Shown: positions 21-25,056 of the stretch, piece after piece | Numbering within the stretch: position 1 is the stretch's first letter | Layout: every line of letters starts with the position of its first letter | Assembly: GCA_020434415.1 (NCBI GenBank) | Contig: JAGRAW010000009.1 | Span: forward strand, 1-32,312 | Source of the DNA: Bdellovibrionales bacterium | Lineage (GTDB): Bacteria > Bdellovibrionota_C > UBA2361 > SZUA-149 | Direction: 5' to 3' | Length of the DNA: 32,312 bases | The notes under the pieces: model-generated | What the model was told of the DNA's origin: nothing | The model's database searches: none | What the model saw: only the letters and a program-made list of their open reading frames with translations | Program-made: the position numbers and the translations under genes

Positions 21-1097
21 TTGGATATCGATCAGCGCATGATGAAGCGGGCGCTCGCTGTAGCGCGTCGCGGAAGCGGGTATACGAATCCGAACCCCGC
101 AGTCGGTGCGCTGCTGGTGAAAGAGGGGGCGATCGTAGGCCGCGGCTGGCACCGACAGGCGGGAGCTCCGCATGCGGAAGTTGAAGCCATTCAGGACGCG
201 GGGCCCCAGGCTTCCGGCGCGACCCTTTACGTCACTCTCGAGCCCTGCAATCACCATGGACGAACCCCACCATGTGTCGATGCGATACTCCGCGCCGGAA
301 TTCGGCGGGTGGTGATCGCGCGAGGTGATCCTAATCCCGGCGTTCAAGGAGGCGGTGCCGAGCGTCTTCGCGCAGCGGGAGTGGAGGTGCGGTCGGGCGT
401 CTTGGCGCGAGAGGCACAGGAGCTAAACGTCGGATGGGAACACTGGATACAGAGCGGTCGGCCTTATCTGGTTGTGCATGCGGTCGTTTCGATCGACGGA
501 CGTGTCCGATGCGCCGCAGGTAAACCGCTAGAACTTGCTTCCAAGGTTGCTCGCTCGCACTACCGGCGCCTTCACCGCCTAGCACAGGCCGAACTGATTG
601 ACCTGAGGGCTGCATTCGGGCCGATGCCCGGTGCTGAAGCGGGAGCTGTAAAACGCCCCTACCGAATACTCGTAGCGCCGCTCCTTGACGGGCTCTTAGG
701 AAAGGCGGAACGGCCTTCCGTGGATCTTGTTGTTTGCTCCTCCGGGGCTTCGGCGGAGGCGCGACGTTCTCTGGAGCACGTCGGAATAGAAACGCTACCG
801 CTTGCCGAAGGGGCCGAAGGGGCCGCTTACGGTATCTTGCTGGCCGAGCTCGGCAGGCGAGGATTGCAGTCGGTGGTATGCGAAAATTCCGAACTAGGGG
901 CTGCCCTGTTGGCGGCGAAGCTGCCACAGCGGCTCTATCTTCACCGTGTTCCGACGCTTGTCGGCACAGCGGGGACTCCATTTTGGCCCCTCGAAACGGC
1001 GGCGCCTCGGCTGACCCCTCTTTGGACACGAAGGGTGGGTAGTGACGCCTTCACTGTGTACGAGGTCGGTGACGTGGAGCAGCTTGAGGCGGTGTGA
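21..1097 (+). CDS. ribD: RibD: riboflavin deaminase with a degenerate reductase domain
   Basis: RibD normally deaminates the GTP-derived diaminopyrimidine and then reduces the ribosyl side chain with NADPH, in the cytoplasm. The N-terminal cytidine-deaminase-like domain (about residues 1-145) is intact: NPNPAVGALLV, the zinc motif PHAEVEAI, and LEPCNHHGRTPPC with both zinc cysteines. The C-terminal domain (about 150-350) starts normally with RPYLVVHAVVSIDGR. The family motif DAILVGxGTVxxDDPxLTxR is not recognisable (the segment reads AELIDLRAAFGPMPGAEAG), and the later glycine pair reads CENSELGAALL. Reductase activity is therefore doubtful. Length (358 aa) is normal. The start chosen is TTG at 21; ATG codons at 39 and 42 are alternatives, and the frame is open to the left edge, so the true start could lie outside. 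It is first in a ribD-ribE-ribBA-nusB run. The deaminase assignment is secure; loss of reductase function is inferred. Confidence 0.93.
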   Translation: MDIDQRMMKRALAVARRGSGYTNPNPAVGALLVKEGAIVGRGWHRQAGAPHAEVEAIQDAGPQASGATLYVTLEPCNHHGRTPPCVDAILRAGIRRVVIARGDPNPGVQGGGAERLRAAGVEVRSGVLAREAQELNVGWEHWIQSGRPYLVVHAVVSIDGRVRCAAGKPLELASKVARSHYRRLHRLAQAELIDLRAAFGPMPGAEAGAVKRPYRILVAPLLDGLLGKAERPSVDLVVCSSGASAEARRSLEHVGIETLPLAEGAEGAAYGILLAELGRRGLQSVVCENSELGAALLAAKLPQRLYLHRVPTLVGTAGTPFWPLETAAPRLTPLWTRRVGSDAFTVYEVGDVEQLEAV

Positions 1098-1241: not shown

Positions 1242-1844
1242 ATGTTTTCCGGAATGGTGAGAGCGATAGGAATCGTCGAGCAGGCAGATCAAGCTGTCCT
1301 GGCAGTTCGCGCCCCCCTTCTTGCGGACGTCGTAATCGGCGCATCGATCTGTGTTTCCGGGGTGTGCTTGAGCGTCGTGACCCTGGAAGGTGACTGCGCC
1401 TATTTCGATTTGGGTTCGGAGACCCGCCGTTGCACGACGCTGGGGTCGCTCAAAGTCGGTGCGAGAGTCCACCTGGAGCCTAGCGTGCGCTTCTCCGATA
1501 CTATCGACGGCCACCTGGTACAGGGGCACGTTGATGCGACGGCACGGGTGCTGTCGTGCGCTGACGAAGGAAACACGGTGCGCTTCGAGTGCAGTCTACC
1601 GGAGCCGGTTCGACGCTACGTGGTGCCAAAAGGGGCGATTGCAATCGACGGCGTCAGCCTGACGGTCGGGGAGGTGGAGGCCGACCGATTCGCGGTCTAT
1701 ATCATCCCGCACACCCTCGAGCAGACCCTTTTTTCCGAATATCGCGAGGGCAGTGAGGTGAATATCGAGGCTGACATGATTGCTCGGTATCTTGATCGCC
1801 TGGCCGCTCCTTATCGTGCCACGGGAGAGGGAGGGGAAGCGTGA
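1242..1844 (+). CDS. ribE: Riboflavin synthase, alpha chain
   Basis: This enzyme dismutates two 6,7-dimethyl-8-ribityllumazine molecules to riboflavin plus the pyrimidine precursor. Two lumazine-binding barrels are visible. The N-barrel starts MFSGMVRAIG (family MFTGIV) and contains GASICVSGVCLSV and FDLGSETRRCTTLG, ending near GHLVQGHVD. The C-barrel has VPKGAIAIDGVSLTVGEVE and IIPHTLEQT. The conserved Ser, Cys, Lys and Ser positions of the active site are present. The threonines of MFTG and CLTV are serines here, which is conservative, so it looks functional. Length of 200 aa is typical. An AAGGTG ribosome-binding site lies 7 nt before the ATG. The 144-nt gap after ribD shows no FMN riboswitch. 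The stop overlaps the ribBA start by 4 nt, implying translational coupling. It is the least altered riboflavin enzyme in this cluster together with the GTP cyclohydrolase half of ribBA. Confidence 0.95.
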   Translation: MFSGMVRAIGIVEQADQAVLAVRAPLLADVVIGASICVSGVCLSVVTLEGDCAYFDLGSETRRCTTLGSLKVGARVHLEPSVRFSDTIDGHLVQGHVDATARVLSCADEGNTVRFECSLPEPVRRYVVPKGAIAIDGVSLTVGEVEADRFAVYIIPHTLEQTLFSEYREGSEVNIEADMIARYLDRLAAPYRATGEGGEA

Positions 1845-3100
1845 AGCTCGATCCGCTGGACGAAATATTGGCTGATATTCGAAACGGACGGCCAATCGTG
1901 CTCGTCGACGATGTCGATCGGGAGAACGAAGGTGACTTGATGGTCGCGGCAGAGAAAGTCACGGCCGAAGCGCTTGCGTTTATGCTGGAGCACGGAAAGG
2001 GTCTCATCTGCATCAGTCTTCCGCAGTCGCGCTTGGAGGAGCTGGAGATTCCGCTTCAGCCGTTGGAAAACACCTCAACGTTCGGGACCAACTTTGCGGT
2101 GAGCTTCGACTACCGTGAGGTGCTTCCGCACGGCATTACTGCTGCCGGTCGAGCAGCCAGCATCCGCCACGCGGCAGACCCGGCGGCTCGGCCGCAAGAC
2201 TTCGTGCTCCCTGGGTTTGTTTTCCCGGTTGGAGCGGTTCCCGGCGGCGTGTTGAAGCGCCGCGGCCAGACAGAGGGGTCAGTGGATCTTGCCGCACTTG
2301 CGGGCCTTCAGCCGGCAGGCGTGATTTGCGAAATTATGGGTGCGGATGGTCGCATGCTGCGCGGCGCAGAGCTCATGGACTACTGCCGAAAGCATCAGCT
2401 CAAATTGACCAGCGTCGAGGCTTTGGTGCAGCACCGCCTCCATCAGGAAGTCTCTATTCGCCGTGTGGCTGAAGTGGAAGTGCAGCCGGAGATGAAACTT
2501 GGCCACAGCCGCATCGTCGAGCCGTTGCTGCAACAAGCAGCAGCGATGGGGCAAGTGCCGACGATTGGGCTCCGGATTTTTCTTTACGTCGATGACGTCG
2601 ACGGAACCGAGCATTTGGCACTGGTCAAGGGAACGCCGGGGCCCGGGTGTCTGGTTCGAATTCACTCGGAGTGTCTTACCGGCGACGTTTTCCAGAGTGC
2701 GCGTTGCGACTGCGGGCAGCAACTATCGGACAGTCTTTCCGCGATTGTGCAGGCCGGAGCCGGCGTCGTGATTTATCTGCATCAGGAGGGGAGGGGGATC
2801 GGCCTGGGAAACAAGCTGCGAGCATACGAGTTGCAGGATCAGGGCCTTGATACCGTCGACGCGAACGTGCACCTCGGCTTTGAGGCTGATGAACGAGACT
2901 ACCGTGTGGGGGCGCAAATACTGCATGACCTCGGACTAACCTCGGTTCGGCTCATAACCAATAACCCGTTGAAGCTCGAAGCTCTGGCAGGTTTCGATAT
3001 CGAAGTAGTCGAACGGATTGCCTTGCCGGTGCACATCGACCAGCATAACGAAGCCTACATGCAGACGAAGCGTAAGCGCATGGGGCATCTCTTCTCTTAG
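1841..3100 (+). CDS. ribBA: RibBA: intact GTP cyclohydrolase II, degenerate DHBP synthase
   Basis: This is a two-domain riboflavin-entry protein. Residues about 1-200 have the 3,4-dihydroxy-2-butanone-4-phosphate synthase fold: DDVDRENEGDL (acidic metal and substrate loop kept), HGKGLICISL, and PAGVICEIMGADGRMLR. Three core motifs have changed. The family PGHVFPL reads PGFVFPV, GHTE reads GQTE, and TGISAADRA reads HGITAAGRA. Both histidines and the Asp are therefore lost, so this half is probably inactive. Residues about 205-419 are a textbook GTP cyclohydrolase II: CLTGDVFQSARCDCG (three zinc cysteines), YLHQEGRGIGLGNK, DQGLDTVDAN, and TNNPLKLEAL. The GTG start at 1841 overlaps the ribE stop (GTGA) behind a GGGAGGGGAAG purine tract. 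Normal length (419 aa) and an intact reading frame argue against a recent pseudogene. Confidence 0.93.
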   Translation: MKLDPLDEILADIRNGRPIVLVDDVDRENEGDLMVAAEKVTAEALAFMLEHGKGLICISLPQSRLEELEIPLQPLENTSTFGTNFAVSFDYREVLPHGITAAGRAASIRHAADPAARPQDFVLPGFVFPVGAVPGGVLKRRGQTEGSVDLAALAGLQPAGVICEIMGADGRMLRGAELMDYCRKHQLKLTSVEALVQHRLHQEVSIRRVAEVEVQPEMKLGHSRIVEPLLQQAAAMGQVPTIGLRIFLYVDDVDGTEHLALVKGTPGPGCLVRIHSECLTGDVFQSARCDCGQQLSDSLSAIVQAGAGVVIYLHQEGRGIGLGNKLRAYELQDQGLDTVDANVHLGFEADERDYRVGAQILHDLGLTSVRLITNNPLKLEALAGFDIEVVERIALPVHIDQHNEAYMQTKRKRMGHLFS

Positions 3101-6679: not shown

Positions 6680-7627
6680 TCAAGCAGCCCGGCGATAGAC
6701 TTCCGCAGCAAGATACAGGTCCTGCACCGCAAGTCCGTGCGAGCAATAGAGGGTGTAGCCTGAGCTCGGCAAGGAGAAGCTGTCTTGTCTGAGCACGTCA
6801 CCAAGCTCCTCGACCTGGTTCCAGTTGACCCTTCCGTGCTCAATCGGACCGAGTAGGGTGCCGCCCTCTCGCTCGGCAGTTGCCCGTTCGTCAACCACGA
6901 TAAGCTTCGCTCCCGTCACCGTCCGAGGGCACAGTTCTCGTCGAGACAGGGCATTGGAGCCGATGGCCGAAATATGTCGAACAGTAGTAAGTGCCTCGAA
7001 GGGTACCACGGGTTGCGACGAGCTTGTCGCGGTAACGACGAGCTCTACTCCATCGACCGCGGCAGCAGCGGAGGCGTATGCTCGTACCGAAGTGCCGAAG
7101 CGGGATGTCGCGGCTTCGGCAAAATGTTCTCGTCGTGCTTGATCCCGGGAGTAGACGCGAATCTTCTGGAGTTGAAAGCCTGCACTGGCCGCAAGGTAGG
7201 CGGCGACCAAGCCTTCTGCCTGAAAGCCGGTGCCGATGATCGCCAACTCCTGGGGATTGGCTTGGACAAGCCTACGGGCTGCTACAGCGGATGCCGCAGT
7301 GGTGCGAAGGCGCCCCAGCTCGTTGGCTTCGATATGGGCGAGGAGGGTGCCGTTGTCCGCCGAGAATAGCTGAACGAAGCTGTGCATAGCGCCGCCTGCG
7401 ACGGCATACACCTTCGTCCCGAGTAGCCCCAGGGAGCTGCTTGCGGCACTCATGGAGTGCAGGGTGGCGCCGACAAGTCGGGCGCGTGCTCGAGGAACAT
7501 TGACAGCGGTGCCGAGCGCTAGGTCCAAATGTGCGGATCTCACCGCCTCGAGCGCGTCGTTCGGGCCGACGAGTCTTGCTACGTCAGCTTCCGTCAGTCG
7601 AAGTGTCTCTGCTAGTCGAAGTGCCAC
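6680..7627 (-). CDS. Ornithine cyclodeaminase / mu-crystallin family NAD(P) enzyme
   Basis: This is a cytoplasmic NAD(P)-dependent enzyme of the family that includes ornithine cyclodeaminase, alanine dehydrogenase and ketimine reductase. An N-terminal substrate domain has LHSMSAASSSLGLLGTKVYAVAGG, with the family lysine in GTKVY. The Rossmann domain has LAIIGTGFQAEGLVAAYLAA (GxGxQA), followed by VVTATSSSQPVV and HISAIGSNALSRREL. The catalytic Asp of ornithine cyclodeaminase is replaced in that last motif by a GSN-type sequence, so true ornithine cyclodeaminase activity is unlikely. The start is a GTG that overlaps the 3' end of the upstream lipoprotein gene by 16 nt, suggesting translational coupling. 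The nearby D-amino-acid deacylase hints at amino-acid turnover, but the substrate is unknown. Length of 315 aa is normal. Confidence 0.87.
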   Translation of the reverse strand: MALRLAETLRLTEADVARLVGPNDALEAVRSAHLDLALGTAVNVPRARARLVGATLHSMSAASSSLGLLGTKVYAVAGGAMHSFVQLFSADNGTLLAHIEANELGRLRTTAASAVAARRLVQANPQELAIIGTGFQAEGLVAAYLAASAGFQLQKIRVYSRDQARREHFAEAATSRFGTSVRAYASAAAAVDGVELVVTATSSSQPVVPFEALTTVRHISAIGSNALSRRELCPRTVTGAKLIVVDERATAEREGGTLLGPIEHGRVNWNQVEELGDVLRQDSFSLPSSGYTLYCSHGLAVQDLYLAAEVYRRAA

Positions 7628-8604
7628 TGCCGATTGGTGTAGAGATACTGTTTCGGGCCCGGCTGGTAGCCGTCCAGGATGCCGTCGCCGTTCGTATCGG
7701 GATTGCGCGGATCCTGATTCAGCAAAAGCTCGAGGGGGTCGGAAAGCGAGTCCTTGTCGGTGTCGGCTACCAGCGGGTTCGAGCCCGCAGCCTGTTCCGT
7801 AGTGTCGGCAAGGCCGTCTCCGTCTCGATCCGCTCGCAGTCCCTCAGCGGCATCCAGAGGATCGGTGCCGTTAAGTAATTCCGTGCCGTCCGGGACGCCG
7901 TCGCCGTCGGTGTCCGCAGACTGCGGATTTGCGCCCAGCTCACCTTCAAACAAGTCGGGAAGCCCGTCACCGTCTTCATCCTGAACAGCGGAGCCTGCAA
8001 AGCGGAAAAGGCCCAAATCCGGCCGGCTTGTGGCATCAAGCGGGTCGTAGCCTTCATTTACCTCGTAGGAATCGGAGAAACCGTCATTGTCGCTGTCGGG
8101 ATGTTCCGCGCTTGTGCCGAAGAAGCTTTCGTCTTCGTCAGAAAGTCCGTCCGCATCTCGATCCCCGGTGTCAGCGCTGTCGGTACCCGCCGCGCCTTCC
8201 CCCAAGGAAACAAAGTCTCCGAGGAACCCGGAGGATGAGGAAGAGCTACTGGTTGAGGTCGAGCTGGAGGTCGAGGACGATGTTGAGCTGGAGGTCGAGG
8301 ATGATGTCGACGTCGATGTCGAACTGGACGATGAGCTGCTGGAGGAAGAGCTACTGGACGAGGAGCTGCTGCCGCTGGAGCCCGAAGATGATGTCCCCGA
8401 AGATGAAGTTCCGGAAGATGTGCCGGAAGATGTGCCGGAAGATGTGGAGGTCGAGCTTGAGGATGATGAGCTCGAGGAAGAGGACGTCGTGCGGGCGGTC
8501 GGATCAAGAATCACATTCTCGTCGCAGCCCTGGAGGTTGCTTCCCGAAATAACGATAGCCGCAAAAACGAGCTGGAAGACGAGAGTTGATTTCCGTGACA
8601 GCAT
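7612..8604 (-). CDS. Thrombospondin type-3 repeat lipoprotein with a poly-Ser/Thr/Gly linker
   Basis: This is a predicted outer-membrane or surface lipoprotein. A signal peptide (residues 1-26) ends in the lipobox LQGC, with Cys27 as the lipidation site. Residues 39-124 consist only of Ser, Thr and Gly, a long flexible tether. Residues about 140-320 carry seven calcium-binding thrombospondin type-3-like repeats of the form DxDxDGxxD, for example DSDNDGFSD, DEDGDGLPD, DTDGDGVPD, DRDGDGLAD and DTNGDGILD. The repeats end near the C-terminus without a sorting domain. The last codons overlap the next gene. Such proteins bind calcium and are often adhesive or structural; no enzyme domain is visible. 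The ATG at 8604 is the only start that gives the signal peptide. Confidence 0.88.
   Translation of the reverse strand: MLSRKSTLVFQLVFAAIVISGSNLQGCDENVILDPTARTTSSSSSSSSSSSTSTSSGTSSGTSSGTSSSGTSSSGSSGSSSSSSSSSSSSSSSSSTSTSTSSSTSSSTSSSTSSSTSTSSSSSSSGFLGDFVSLGEGAAGTDSADTGDRDADGLSDEDESFFGTSAEHPDSDNDGFSDSYEVNEGYDPLDATSRPDLGLFRFAGSAVQDEDGDGLPDLFEGELGANPQSADTDGDGVPDGTELLNGTDPLDAAEGLRADRDGDGLADTTEQAAGSNPLVADTDKDSLSDPLELLLNQDPRNPDTNGDGILDGYQPGPKQYLYTNRQWHFD
8233..8490 (-). repeat. Low-complexity Ser/Thr/Gly-coding tract with 12-bp tandem repeats
   Basis: This tract encodes 86 consecutive Ser, Thr or Gly residues of the lipoprotein linker, using a mixture of Ser codons. Within it, the 12-mer CCGGAAGATGTG (plus strand) occurs three times in perfect tandem at 8411-8422, 8423-8434 and 8435-8446, encoding Gly-Thr-Ser-Ser units. 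Slippage could change the linker length without a frameshift. The opposite strand reads as a long acidic frame, which is an artefact. Confidence 0.85.
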
Positions 8605-22269: not shown

Positions 22270-22458
22270 CAGTAGTCGGGAGCTCCACAGCCGGATACCT
22301 CGGTCGGCAACGCAGGAGAGCCTGTTGTTTGCTTGGTTGGGGACAACGTCTAATGATCCAAGCAGCTTAGCACTTAGTTTGAAGCGAACGTGCCGAAACC
22401 ACTGACTATTGTCTGGATTGTGAGGCGCTGAGGGTGCGCCAGGGCGTTGTTGTGGTAC

Positions 22459-25056
22459 ATGGCGGGCAAGAAACCAAACCTGACATTGGTGAGCGATAGT
22501 TCGGAGCGCGCAAGCGGCGGGCTTGCGATCTCGGCCGGCTTCGATTTCGTTTCCATCGGTGAGCTGAGTCCCAAGGAGCGGGATCGCCTTGAACGGCTGA
22601 TCGAAGCGGCGTGCCCTAAATCGGGGGTGCTCGCCGTCGCGCGTCCGGGGAAGACCTGGGATCTCCGACCGGTAGTGGTCCGTGCGGGAGAGCCGGGCCC
22701 GACCATCATCCGTTGCGCGGGACCGGATGTCTCCCTGCAACCGGTGCTTCACGAGCGGCTTCGCGAGACTTTTGAGCGTCTGACCCATTTTCGTGACCTG
22801 CGGAGCGGTGTCTGCGATTTCGGTACTCTCGAGAATCAGCTTTGGTATCGGCGCGTGCTCGTACCGAGTACGCTCGCGCATATCCTGTCGGCACGAAGCG
22901 ACCTTCAGATTCCTTCAGTTGTGCGGCTCCTCGCTGTGCTCGCTCAGGAGCTTCAAGAATGGCAGTCGCACGGGGTATGGCACGGTCATCTGACAACATC
23001 GAATATCGCGCTGAATGCGGATGGCTCCGTACTGTTTCTCGACGCAGGAATTGGTGCGGCACTTGCCGAAGCGTCGCGCGAGTGTCCGCCGGAGTTGGTG
23101 CAGACGCTAGCACCGGAGATGCTGGGCAACCTTGCTCTAAATGCCAGAACCGACATCTACGGTCTCGGACAAGTCTTTCGACGCATCTTCCTCGTCCTGC
23201 GCAAGAAGCATCAGTTTACGAACGACCGGCATCTCGTAGCCGACCTCACGGATCGTCATCAGGCGCTGCTTGATGCGATGATTGCGGAGGTCCCTACCGA
23301 GCGACCTGATATTGGTGAAGTTGTCGAGGCACTCCAGGTCGCCAAAGATGGCAAAAGTGCCCGAGCTTCTGCGAGGAGCGCAACTCCACCGCCGAGAGAG
23401 GCGGCGGCCTCCGGCAGAATCGTTCAAAAGGCAAGGCCCACGGTTTCCATGATAATGGAACCGGTGACCGAGGACGAAGGAGATGCCTTTTTGTCCGAAC
23501 TGGAACGCGAGCCGGTGGCAGAAGGGTTTTTCGATATCGATGATATTGATGATGCGGCACTGTTGGAGGCCCCCGGGCAGCCGACACCTGCTCCGCTTAC
23601 CACCGACCGTCCTCCCCAGAGGCCGTTCCAACAGGAGCCGGCGGGCCAACGGGTAGCCGTCGCTACCGGAACGACGACGGCAACCGGATGGGTGCTGCTT
23701 CTGGGAGCGTTGGTCGTCGTGGCGGTTCTATTCGTGCGCCTGTTCTCCCCGGCGTATGAAACTGTGGAATACGATTTGAATCAGCTCCGCCTCGACTGGA
23801 TGAGCAAGATTCCCTCCCGCATGCTTACGGTGGCTGAAGTGGCGCTCGAGAAGGAATACGAGAACAAACAGGTGCAAGACCTGATTGTCGCTTCGGCGCA
23901 CAACGGCGATGAACTGCCGGGAGTCGACGTCGGGCTGTTACGGGTCGCCTTCGATAGCAGCTGGGAGATGCAGCTCGACCACGAGGACCGCCGAATGGCG
24001 ATCGCATTTGCGCTCGCGCGACTTTTAGGTGAGACAGCGCCGCAAGACTTGGGTCCGCTGGATCAGCGTCATCCGGGCGTCATTCTGGCGATTCTTTCAG
24101 CAGCAGGCGAGCAAACCGGCCGACTGCTCCAGCGAGTGCCGGCACATGTGCTGACCAAACTTCCGCCGCCCTATGGGCCCGCATTTCAGCGTCTCGTGGA
24201 GTCGAACATGGATCTCTCCTGCGCTGACGGCGCGGTCAGGAATCTGGCTCGGTTCAGCGCTCGTGGTGTTGAGGATGTAGAAGATATCGCGGTGTACTTG
24301 GCTGAAAACGGTTCTGTTCGGCTTCAGGCGCTGGCAATCATGTTTTCCCACGAAGCGTTCGCGGCAAAGTCGGCGCTCGAGCTGTTGCTCAACCATCCGA
24401 ACATCGTGCTGGACTTGCCGGAAATTACTTGGGGACGCACCTGGGAACTTCAGAAGTGGGCCGAACTGGATGAAAGCGATCAACTCTTCGTGCTTGCAGG
24501 AATAGCGCCCTCTCAAAAGGTGCAAGTCGAGAATATCGCCAAGCTGTTTCTCCATCCAAACCCTCAATTGCGCGCGTATGCGATTGCAGATGCGATAAAC
24601 CGAGTGGCCTTTGAGCACCCGGCTTCGGTCGCTGTGCTTACCAGTGTTCGTGCGAATCCTGAATCCGTTCCGCCGGAGCAGCTCGCGCGTCTTGCCGAGA
24701 TTCTTCAGCAGCCGTCTGCGGTGACCGAGCAGCGAATAACGGAGCTTTTGGATTCAGAGCCGCCGGTTGAGCTCATCGCGATGATTCTGCTCTCGTCCGC
24801 AAAGAAGGCGGAGGCTTCGACCCTCGACACTTGGCTGGCCGTCTATCTCAACAGCAAGCAGTGGGCGCCTTCCTCCACCGAGCTTGAGGCCTTGGTCGCT
24901 CATCCGGATCGATACACTCGCTTGTTCGCCTACAACAAAGCCCTGGTGTCGCAGGACCGGCAGGCAGCCAAGGCGCTACTGGAACAATCGCTGACGCGGG
25001 AAACCGATCCCGAGTTCCAGGAGCAGCTGCGATTGATGATTCAGCAGTTGCAATAG
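22459..25056 (+). CDS. Transmembrane pseudokinase with helical-repeat C-terminus
   Basis: Residues about 90-290 have a protein-kinase C-lobe. The catalytic loop reads HGHLTTSN (175-182) where kinases have HRDLKxxN, so the catalytic Asp is missing. The DFG position is DAG (195-197). APE (218-220) and DIYGLG (232-237) are kept. No glycine loop or VAIK lysine is obvious in the N-lobe. A disordered linker (about 300-405), rich in Pro and acidic residues, leads to one membrane helix (about 410-429, GWVLLLGALVVVAVLFVRLF). The remaining 430 residues are alpha-helical with HEAT-like spacing and would lie outside the cytoplasm if the kinase part is inside. ATG 22459 is preferred over the TTG at 22447. 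It is first in a same-strand cluster with an active kinase. It is probably a scaffold or sensor; the ligand is unknown. Confidence 0.8.
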   Translation: MAGKKPNLTLVSDSSERASGGLAISAGFDFVSIGELSPKERDRLERLIEAACPKSGVLAVARPGKTWDLRPVVVRAGEPGPTIIRCAGPDVSLQPVLHERLRETFERLTHFRDLRSGVCDFGTLENQLWYRRVLVPSTLAHILSARSDLQIPSVVRLLAVLAQELQEWQSHGVWHGHLTTSNIALNADGSVLFLDAGIGAALAEASRECPPELVQTLAPEMLGNLALNARTDIYGLGQVFRRIFLVLRKKHQFTNDRHLVADLTDRHQALLDAMIAEVPTERPDIGEVVEALQVAKDGKSARASARSATPPPREAAASGRIVQKARPTVSMIMEPVTEDEGDAFLSELEREPVAEGFFDIDDIDDAALLEAPGQPTPAPLTTDRPPQRPFQQEPAGQRVAVATGTTTATGWVLLLGALVVVAVLFVRLFSPAYETVEYDLNQLRLDWMSKIPSRMLTVAEVALEKEYENKQVQDLIVASAHNGDELPGVDVGLLRVAFDSSWEMQLDHEDRRMAIAFALARLLGETAPQDLGPLDQRHPGVILAILSAAGEQTGRLLQRVPAHVLTKLPPPYGPAFQRLVESNMDLSCADGAVRNLARFSARGVEDVEDIAVYLAENGSVRLQALAIMFSHEAFAAKSALELLLNHPNIVLDLPEITWGRTWELQKWAELDESDQLFVLAGIAPSQKVQVENIAKLFLHPNPQLRAYAIADAINRVAFEHPASVAVLTSVRANPESVPPEQLARLAEILQQPSAVTEQRITELLDSEPPVELIAMILLSSAKKAEASTLDTWLAVYLNSKQWAPSSTELEALVAHPDRYTRLFAYNKALVSQDRQAAKALLEQSLTRETDPEFQEQLRLMIQQLQ

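Follow-up and report, generated by a model that had tools for sequence, protein, structure and literature searches.

Normal DHBP synthase is a homodimer whose two identical active sites each combine loops 1-3 from one subunit with loops 4-5 from its partner (PMC5228156). The site of the Vibrio cholerae enzyme comprises loops 34-41, 82-98 and 175-185 of one monomer and loops 103'-111' and 132'-138' of its neighbour (PMC5228156), in a numbering that equals that of E. coli plus one. According to PMC5228156, mutation of Glu39 (V. cholerae numbering) leads to loss of activity and mutation of the residue matching Asp114 to a reduction, both cited there from earlier work, and the M. jannaschii enzyme is less active when the Asp at the D113 position is replaced by Ser. 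In normal enzymes T107 is strictly conserved; it and D113 are both said to make no direct contact with the substrate (PMC5228156). Throughout, we took the assignment of loops to subunits from these published structures, numbered residues after E. coli RibB (PDB 1g57) unless stated otherwise, and refer to the residues that a protein contributes to its own site as cis and to those that it lends to its neighbour as trans.

The window analysed here, a stretch of 32,312 nucleotides at positions 1 to 32,312 of contig JAGRAW010000009.1 from a Bdellovibrionales bacterium, carries the cluster ribD-ribE-ribBA, followed by nusB; no RNA element was found between ribBA and nusB at the gathering score. The ribE gene, encoding riboflavin synthase (1242..1844, + strand; NF006767, 203 bits), overlaps the start of ribBA (1841..3100, + strand), which opens with GTG and encodes a protein of 419 aa. 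This protein, hereafter type A, joins a DHBP synthase half to a GTP cyclohydrolase II (GCHII) half, scores 226 bits against PF00926 (cut-off 26.4) and 218 bits against PF00925, and lies above the cut-off of TIGR00506 (192 bits; cut-off 177). The initial annotation had described the GCHII half and the reading frame as intact, and both are: the frame is open over its full length, and the GCHII half (2570..3100, + strand; TIGR00505, 226 bits, cut-off 206) keeps its three Zn cysteines (C278, C289 and C291) and the catalytic motifs HQEGRGIGL, DERDY and TNNP. At the head of the cluster, ribD (21..1097, + strand) encodes a normal deaminase half and a degenerate reductase half, the latter scoring 28 bits against RibD_C compared to 118-127 bits for intact ones. 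A stand-alone RibD_C reductase is encoded in the same genome (G000:C299:12796-13449), and because a relative, G001, still has the stand-alone RibD_C gene alongside a RibD with an intact reductase half, the arrangement resembles an ordinary within-family displacement. Elsewhere in the window lie a predicted lipoprotein (7612-8604, - strand) in which a long low-complexity stretch rich in Ser and Thr precedes bacterial TSP3 (calcium-binding) repeats, and an 869-aa protein (22447-25056) whose N-terminal domain is protein-kinase-like but very divergent (19 bits), and which also has a predicted membrane segment and, in its long C-terminal half, no Pfam match.

Alignment of the DHBP synthase half to E. 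coli RibB confirmed the three substitutions from which the loss of both catalytic histidines had initially been deduced, namely PGF for PGH, GQTE for GHTE and GRA for DRA. They place F126 at H136 (nt 2216-2218, TTT), Q143 at H153 (nt 2267-2269, CAG) and G103 at D113 (nt 2147-2149, GGT). Furthermore, the alignment revealed features that had gone unmentioned, comprising the substitutions of T106 by P96, T107 by H97 and S110 by T100, as well as the retention of R27, E28, E30, D32, R140, T144, E145 and E164 (own numbering). Viewed by loop, all on the + strand, the cis elements are intact: loop 1 (1907..1936) with D23, R27, E28, E30 and D32 for E. coli D33, R37, E38, E40 and D42; loop 2 (2069..2095) with N77, T83 and F85 for N87, T93 and F95; the phosphate/metal segment R140-RGQTE145 (2258..2275), covering R150, H153Q, T154 and E155 and carrying the ordinary Q variant; and loop 3 (2327..2362) with C163, E164, M172 and R174 for C173, E174, M182 and R184. 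The trans elements are degenerate, with V94, P96, H97, T100 and G103 standing for G104, T106, T107, S110 and D113 in loop 4 and the adjoining D113 position (2120..2149), and PGF for PGH in loop 5 (2210..2218). The window protein thus has all of the cis residues D33, R37, E38, E40, D42, R150, H/Q153, T154 and E174, and reads H, T, G and F at the trans positions T107, S110, D113 and H136.

The claim about the two histidines stood only in part. Phenylalanine at H136 is indeed unusual; glutamine at 153, on the other hand, occurs in 45 of 80 canonical RibBA proteins from named genomes in which the other catalytic residues are all intact, a set of loci fetched by patterns selecting T107 and H136, not position 153, and used for the count at 153 only. 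The same glutamine is found in 3 of 12 canonical comparison proteins. We therefore rejected the loss of H153 as meaningful, and the claim shrinks to one truly unusual histidine together with the T107/D113 loop.

Our sample of the window's phylum, which consists of uncultured bacteria, represents one class and 46 genomes, 38 of which bear a type-A orthologue. D113 is lost in 37 of the 38 orthologues, the A of G016 retaining it, and T107 in 35, so the substitutions are neither random nor assembly errors. Conversely, R37, E38, E40, D42, R150, T154 and E174 are intact in all 38, where the sequence covers them; two copies (G032 and G043) are cut by contig ends that leave part or most of A off the contig. 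Taken as a family, type A keeps D33, R37, E38, E40, D42, N87, T93, F95, R150, T154, C173, E174, M182 and R184, and has lost G104, T106, T107, I109, S110 and D113. H136 is gone in about half of the copies: in the window's order the residue at 136 is always F, Y or W, and many other families of the phylum have H there. One column, M83, runs contrary to the pattern, since this loop 2 residue, counted as cis, is missing from every A and retained by 94% of the copies of the partner paralogue described below. The window's genome is a draft in 677 contigs, 80% complete, which might favour a sequencing or assembly artefact or a pseudogene; with an open 419-aa frame, like substitutions in 37 orthologues from independent assemblies and a high-confidence predicted fold, the probability of such an explanation is practically nil, and we regard it as refuted by the orthologues.

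The PF00926 proteins of 58 genomes were gathered, aligned and read at the catalytic columns. A second RibBA paralogue, type B, is present in 36 of the 46 genomes of the window's phylum, on another contig than A. Its DHBP synthase half keeps G104, T107, G108, I109, S110, D113, R114, P134, G135 and H136, including the trans residues T107, S110, D113 and H136 that the window protein has not kept. Within the trans loops, S110, D113 and H136 are invariant (36/36), and T107 is present in 34 copies and replaced by Ser in two, giving TSDH in 34 and SSDH in 2. The same half has lost R37, E38, N39, E40, D42, N87, T93, G152, T154, C173, M182 and R184; R37, E38, E40 and D42 are gone from essentially every copy, and H153 and T154 from nearly all. 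Given the loss of E38 and, in nearly all copies, of H153 and T154, B has no metal site. Its GCHII half contains neither Zn cysteines nor catalytic motifs, and B scores 107-144 bits against TIGR00506, below the cut-off of 177. The candidate explanation that B is a retained canonical RibB was rejected by these residues. At seven cis positions, A reads REEDRTE in all 36 genomes with both genes, where the sequence covers them, and over 25 canonical-invariant loop columns the difference in retention (A minus B) separates cis from trans columns (Mann-Whitney p = 2.5e-4). A partner with reciprocal residue losses is accordingly found in the same genome for 36 of the 38 A-bearing genomes. One could suppose that B alone acts as a DHBP synthase with altered chemistry and that A gives only GTP cyclohydrolase II, given that B is conserved and carries the TGISAADR and PGH motifs. 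We find this scarcely credible, as it would require catalysis by a protein devoid of a metal site and would leave the invariance of loops 1-3 in A unexplained.

Among the 46 genomes, 36 have A and B, none has B only, two have A only, three have canonical RibB without A or B, and five have no RibB; the B gene is thus absent from every phylum genome that has canonical RibB or no RibB. Two of the three canonical genomes (G011 and G042) encode a single canonical RibBA each. The third, G029 (loci L014 and L073), encodes a stand-alone canonical RibB beside ribH and, in addition, a RibBA whose RibB half is without R37, E38, E40 and D42 and whose GCHII half is intact. Riboflavin synthase was not found in any of the five genomes without RibB. 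Each of the 18 genomes outside the phylum that gave a match has a single one, which its score marks as canonical. The two A-only genomes are the window's own draft and G039, which is 84% complete. Riboflavin synthase and lumazine synthase are both present in most genomes with A and B, so most of these need DHBP, and no RibB other than A and B was found in them. As a separate observation, ribH (lumazine synthase) was not found in the window's own, 80% complete draft. RibH proteins of relatives fall into two grades, one of about 150-198 bits, often encoded near ribBA, and one of about 105-126 bits, mostly on other contigs; the idea that the missing lumazine synthase signals a new pathway was rejected because ribH is present in most relatives, and its absence is probably a draft gap.

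These data bear on the initial proposal that the RibB half survives as a structural or regulatory domain and that another ribB must exist. The lineage does contain a further RibB-like gene, although it is a paralogue with reciprocal losses and not a complete ribB; a search for a separate complete ribB returned none in any of the 38 A-bearing genomes. A retired RibB half, with DHBP supplied from elsewhere, is the situation of Arabidopsis RIBA3 (PMC3509567) and perhaps of G029, where a stand-alone canonical RibB accompanies a RibBA without R37, E38, E40 and D42. For type A we consider it highly improbable: besides the lack of a complete RibB in these genomes, the residues of its own site show 100% conservation, which a retired domain would not maintain. 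Moreover, the mean pairwise identity among A copies is 53% in the RibB half and 55% in the GCHII half, so that the RibB half, being about as conserved as its catalytically intact neighbour, is not decaying. The corresponding values for the two halves of B are 40% and 41%.

The surroundings of B explain its absence from the draft of the window's genome. All 36 genomes with B have, directly 3' of it on the same strand and mostly overlapping it, a gene that encodes a SAMHD1/EF1143-like HD-domain hydrolase (loci L065-L102), and the two genes are apparently cotranscribed. In the window's genome, only the C-terminal half of the HD gene is present, starting from base 3 of contig C105 (G000:C105:3-668, L225), and this contig is collinear with the equivalent regions of G003 and G001. 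The expected place of B is beyond the contig end, and B is missing from the draft because the contig starts inside the HD gene. The assembly of G003 also breaks inside this gene, with B on the other contig. From this arrangement, we infer that the window's organism has B beyond the contig break. In G039, the other A-only genome, the B locus is unassembled, as only an HD paralogue was found there. Among genomes with an assembled HD gene, B accompanies A in 36 of 36 cases and occurs in none of the four that are without A (G005, G011, G029 and G042, belonging to four families; Fisher p = 1.1e-5, a value that ignores shared ancestry). Around this locus G029 is collinear with G030, except that G029 has no B upstream of its HD gene. 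B therefore follows A and not its operon neighbour. Likewise, the HD hydrolase is not tied to the A-B pair alone, because it is kept in genomes without A and B; the HD gene following B could belong to the same metabolism.

In a tree built without the catalytic loops, which leaves few columns and in which B branches are long, A forms one clade (SH-aLRT 98) and B forms one clade (SH-aLRT 91). An AlphaFold2 model of the window protein has a mean pLDDT of 85, with the RibB half mostly above 90. Foldseek matched the model to DHBP synthase chains with a probability of 1.00 and a TM-score by target length of up to 0.94, the best solved chains superposing at 1.4-1.6 Å rmsd, so the predicted fold of the RibB half is intact. 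The solved structures closest to the window protein are M. tuberculosis RibA2 (4i14) and A. baumannii RibBX (6mnz). The residue patterns, their conservation, the co-occurrence and linkage of the genes, their single origins and the contig break are established by computation.

To account for these patterns, we propose that ribBA was duplicated in the ancestor of the phylum. Copy A, in the ribD-ribE-ribBA cluster, would have kept GCHII activity and loops 1-3 and lost the residues of loops 4-5; copy B, located elsewhere with the HD hydrolase gene, would have kept loops 4-5 and lost loops 1-3 along with the whole GCHII catalytic machinery. In an A-B dimer, A would supply loops 1-3 and B would supply loops 4-5 of one complete site, and the second site would be dead from both sides. 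Given the reciprocal retention of residues, only the A-B dimer could build a complete site, and A-A and B-B dimers could not. The window protein is thus very probably subunit A of an obligate heterodimeric DHBP synthase with one composite site, a reading for which we infer, from sequence, both the binding of A to B and the activity of the composite site. It is unlikely that the window protein acts alone as a normal DHBP synthase; its RibB half is probably not dead and would work only together with a partner. A block-wise loss could mimic part of the pattern, since the kept and lost residues lie largely in one block (about 102-148).

We also considered whether A could be the catalyst as a homodimer that tolerates altered trans loops, with B serving as a dead, prozyme-like activator or regulator. 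In its favour, A has lost none of the residues that bind metal or substrate in its own site, roughly half of the A copies retain H136, and activation by a dead paralogue is a known pattern, as in the deoxyhypusine synthase of trypanosomatids (PMC3663545). In addition, an A homodimer might keep some activity, because T107 and D113 are said not to contact the substrate (PMC5228156). Nevertheless, this alternative appears unlikely to us: a mere regulator would have no reason to hold S110, D113, R114, P134, G135 and H136 in every one of the 36 copies, whose overall identity is about 40%, with loops 1-3 always lost. The strict conservation of T107 in normal enzymes, and the lowered activity of the M. 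jannaschii enzyme with Ser at the D113 position (PMC5228156), likewise speak against altered trans loops being tolerated.

Returning to the heterodimer, we think it likely that the division of the DHBP synthase site is phylum-wide, with a single origin and two reciprocally half-dead paralogues as its outcome; because A also carries GCHII, both entry steps of riboflavin synthesis would then reside in one obligate A-B complex. No earlier report of a heterodimeric DHBP synthase was found in the open-licence literature searched. If true, the A-B pair would be a clean natural case of a shared-site homodimer turned into an obligate heterodimer by reciprocal loss and fixed since the base of the phylum, for which the three genomes with a canonical enzyme and no B offer natural contrasts. 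The model predicts that neither A nor B alone complements an E. coli ribB deletion and that both together do. It would also correct the annotation, as pipelines name both genes bifunctional RibBA, and one gene read alone is called dead.

Compared with described systems, type A resembles bifunctional RibBA in its domain order, its place beside ribD and ribE, its intact GCHII half and the fold of both halves, and differs in that the trans half of its DHBP synthase site is destroyed and a second, complementary gene is present. Copy B shares with RibBX of Proteobacteria (Shewanella, Aeromonas, Bradyrhizobium and Acinetobacter, 6mnz) a GCHII-like domain without catalytic residues; however, RibBX has a functional RibB half (PMC10012899), whereas that of copy B is without any metal ligand. 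Neither paralogue is therefore a RibBX, A having an intact GCHII half and B lacking a functional RibB site. Arabidopsis RIBA2 and RIBA3 are likewise duplicated RIBA proteins with one activity lost in each, but RIBA2 is a working DHBP synthase and RIBA3 has only GCHII (PMC3509567), so that activities, not halves of one site, are divided between them. In trypanosomatid deoxyhypusine synthase, a duplicated homo-oligomer has similarly given rise to an impaired paralogue (DHSc) and a dead one (DHSp) that form an active complex (PMC3663545); that enzyme is unrelated, eukaryotic and restricted to one clade, whereas the loss in A and B is reciprocal and extends across a bacterial phylum. Collectively, none of RibBX, RIBA2/RIBA3 and deoxyhypusine synthase is a DHBP synthase with one site divided reciprocally between paralogues.
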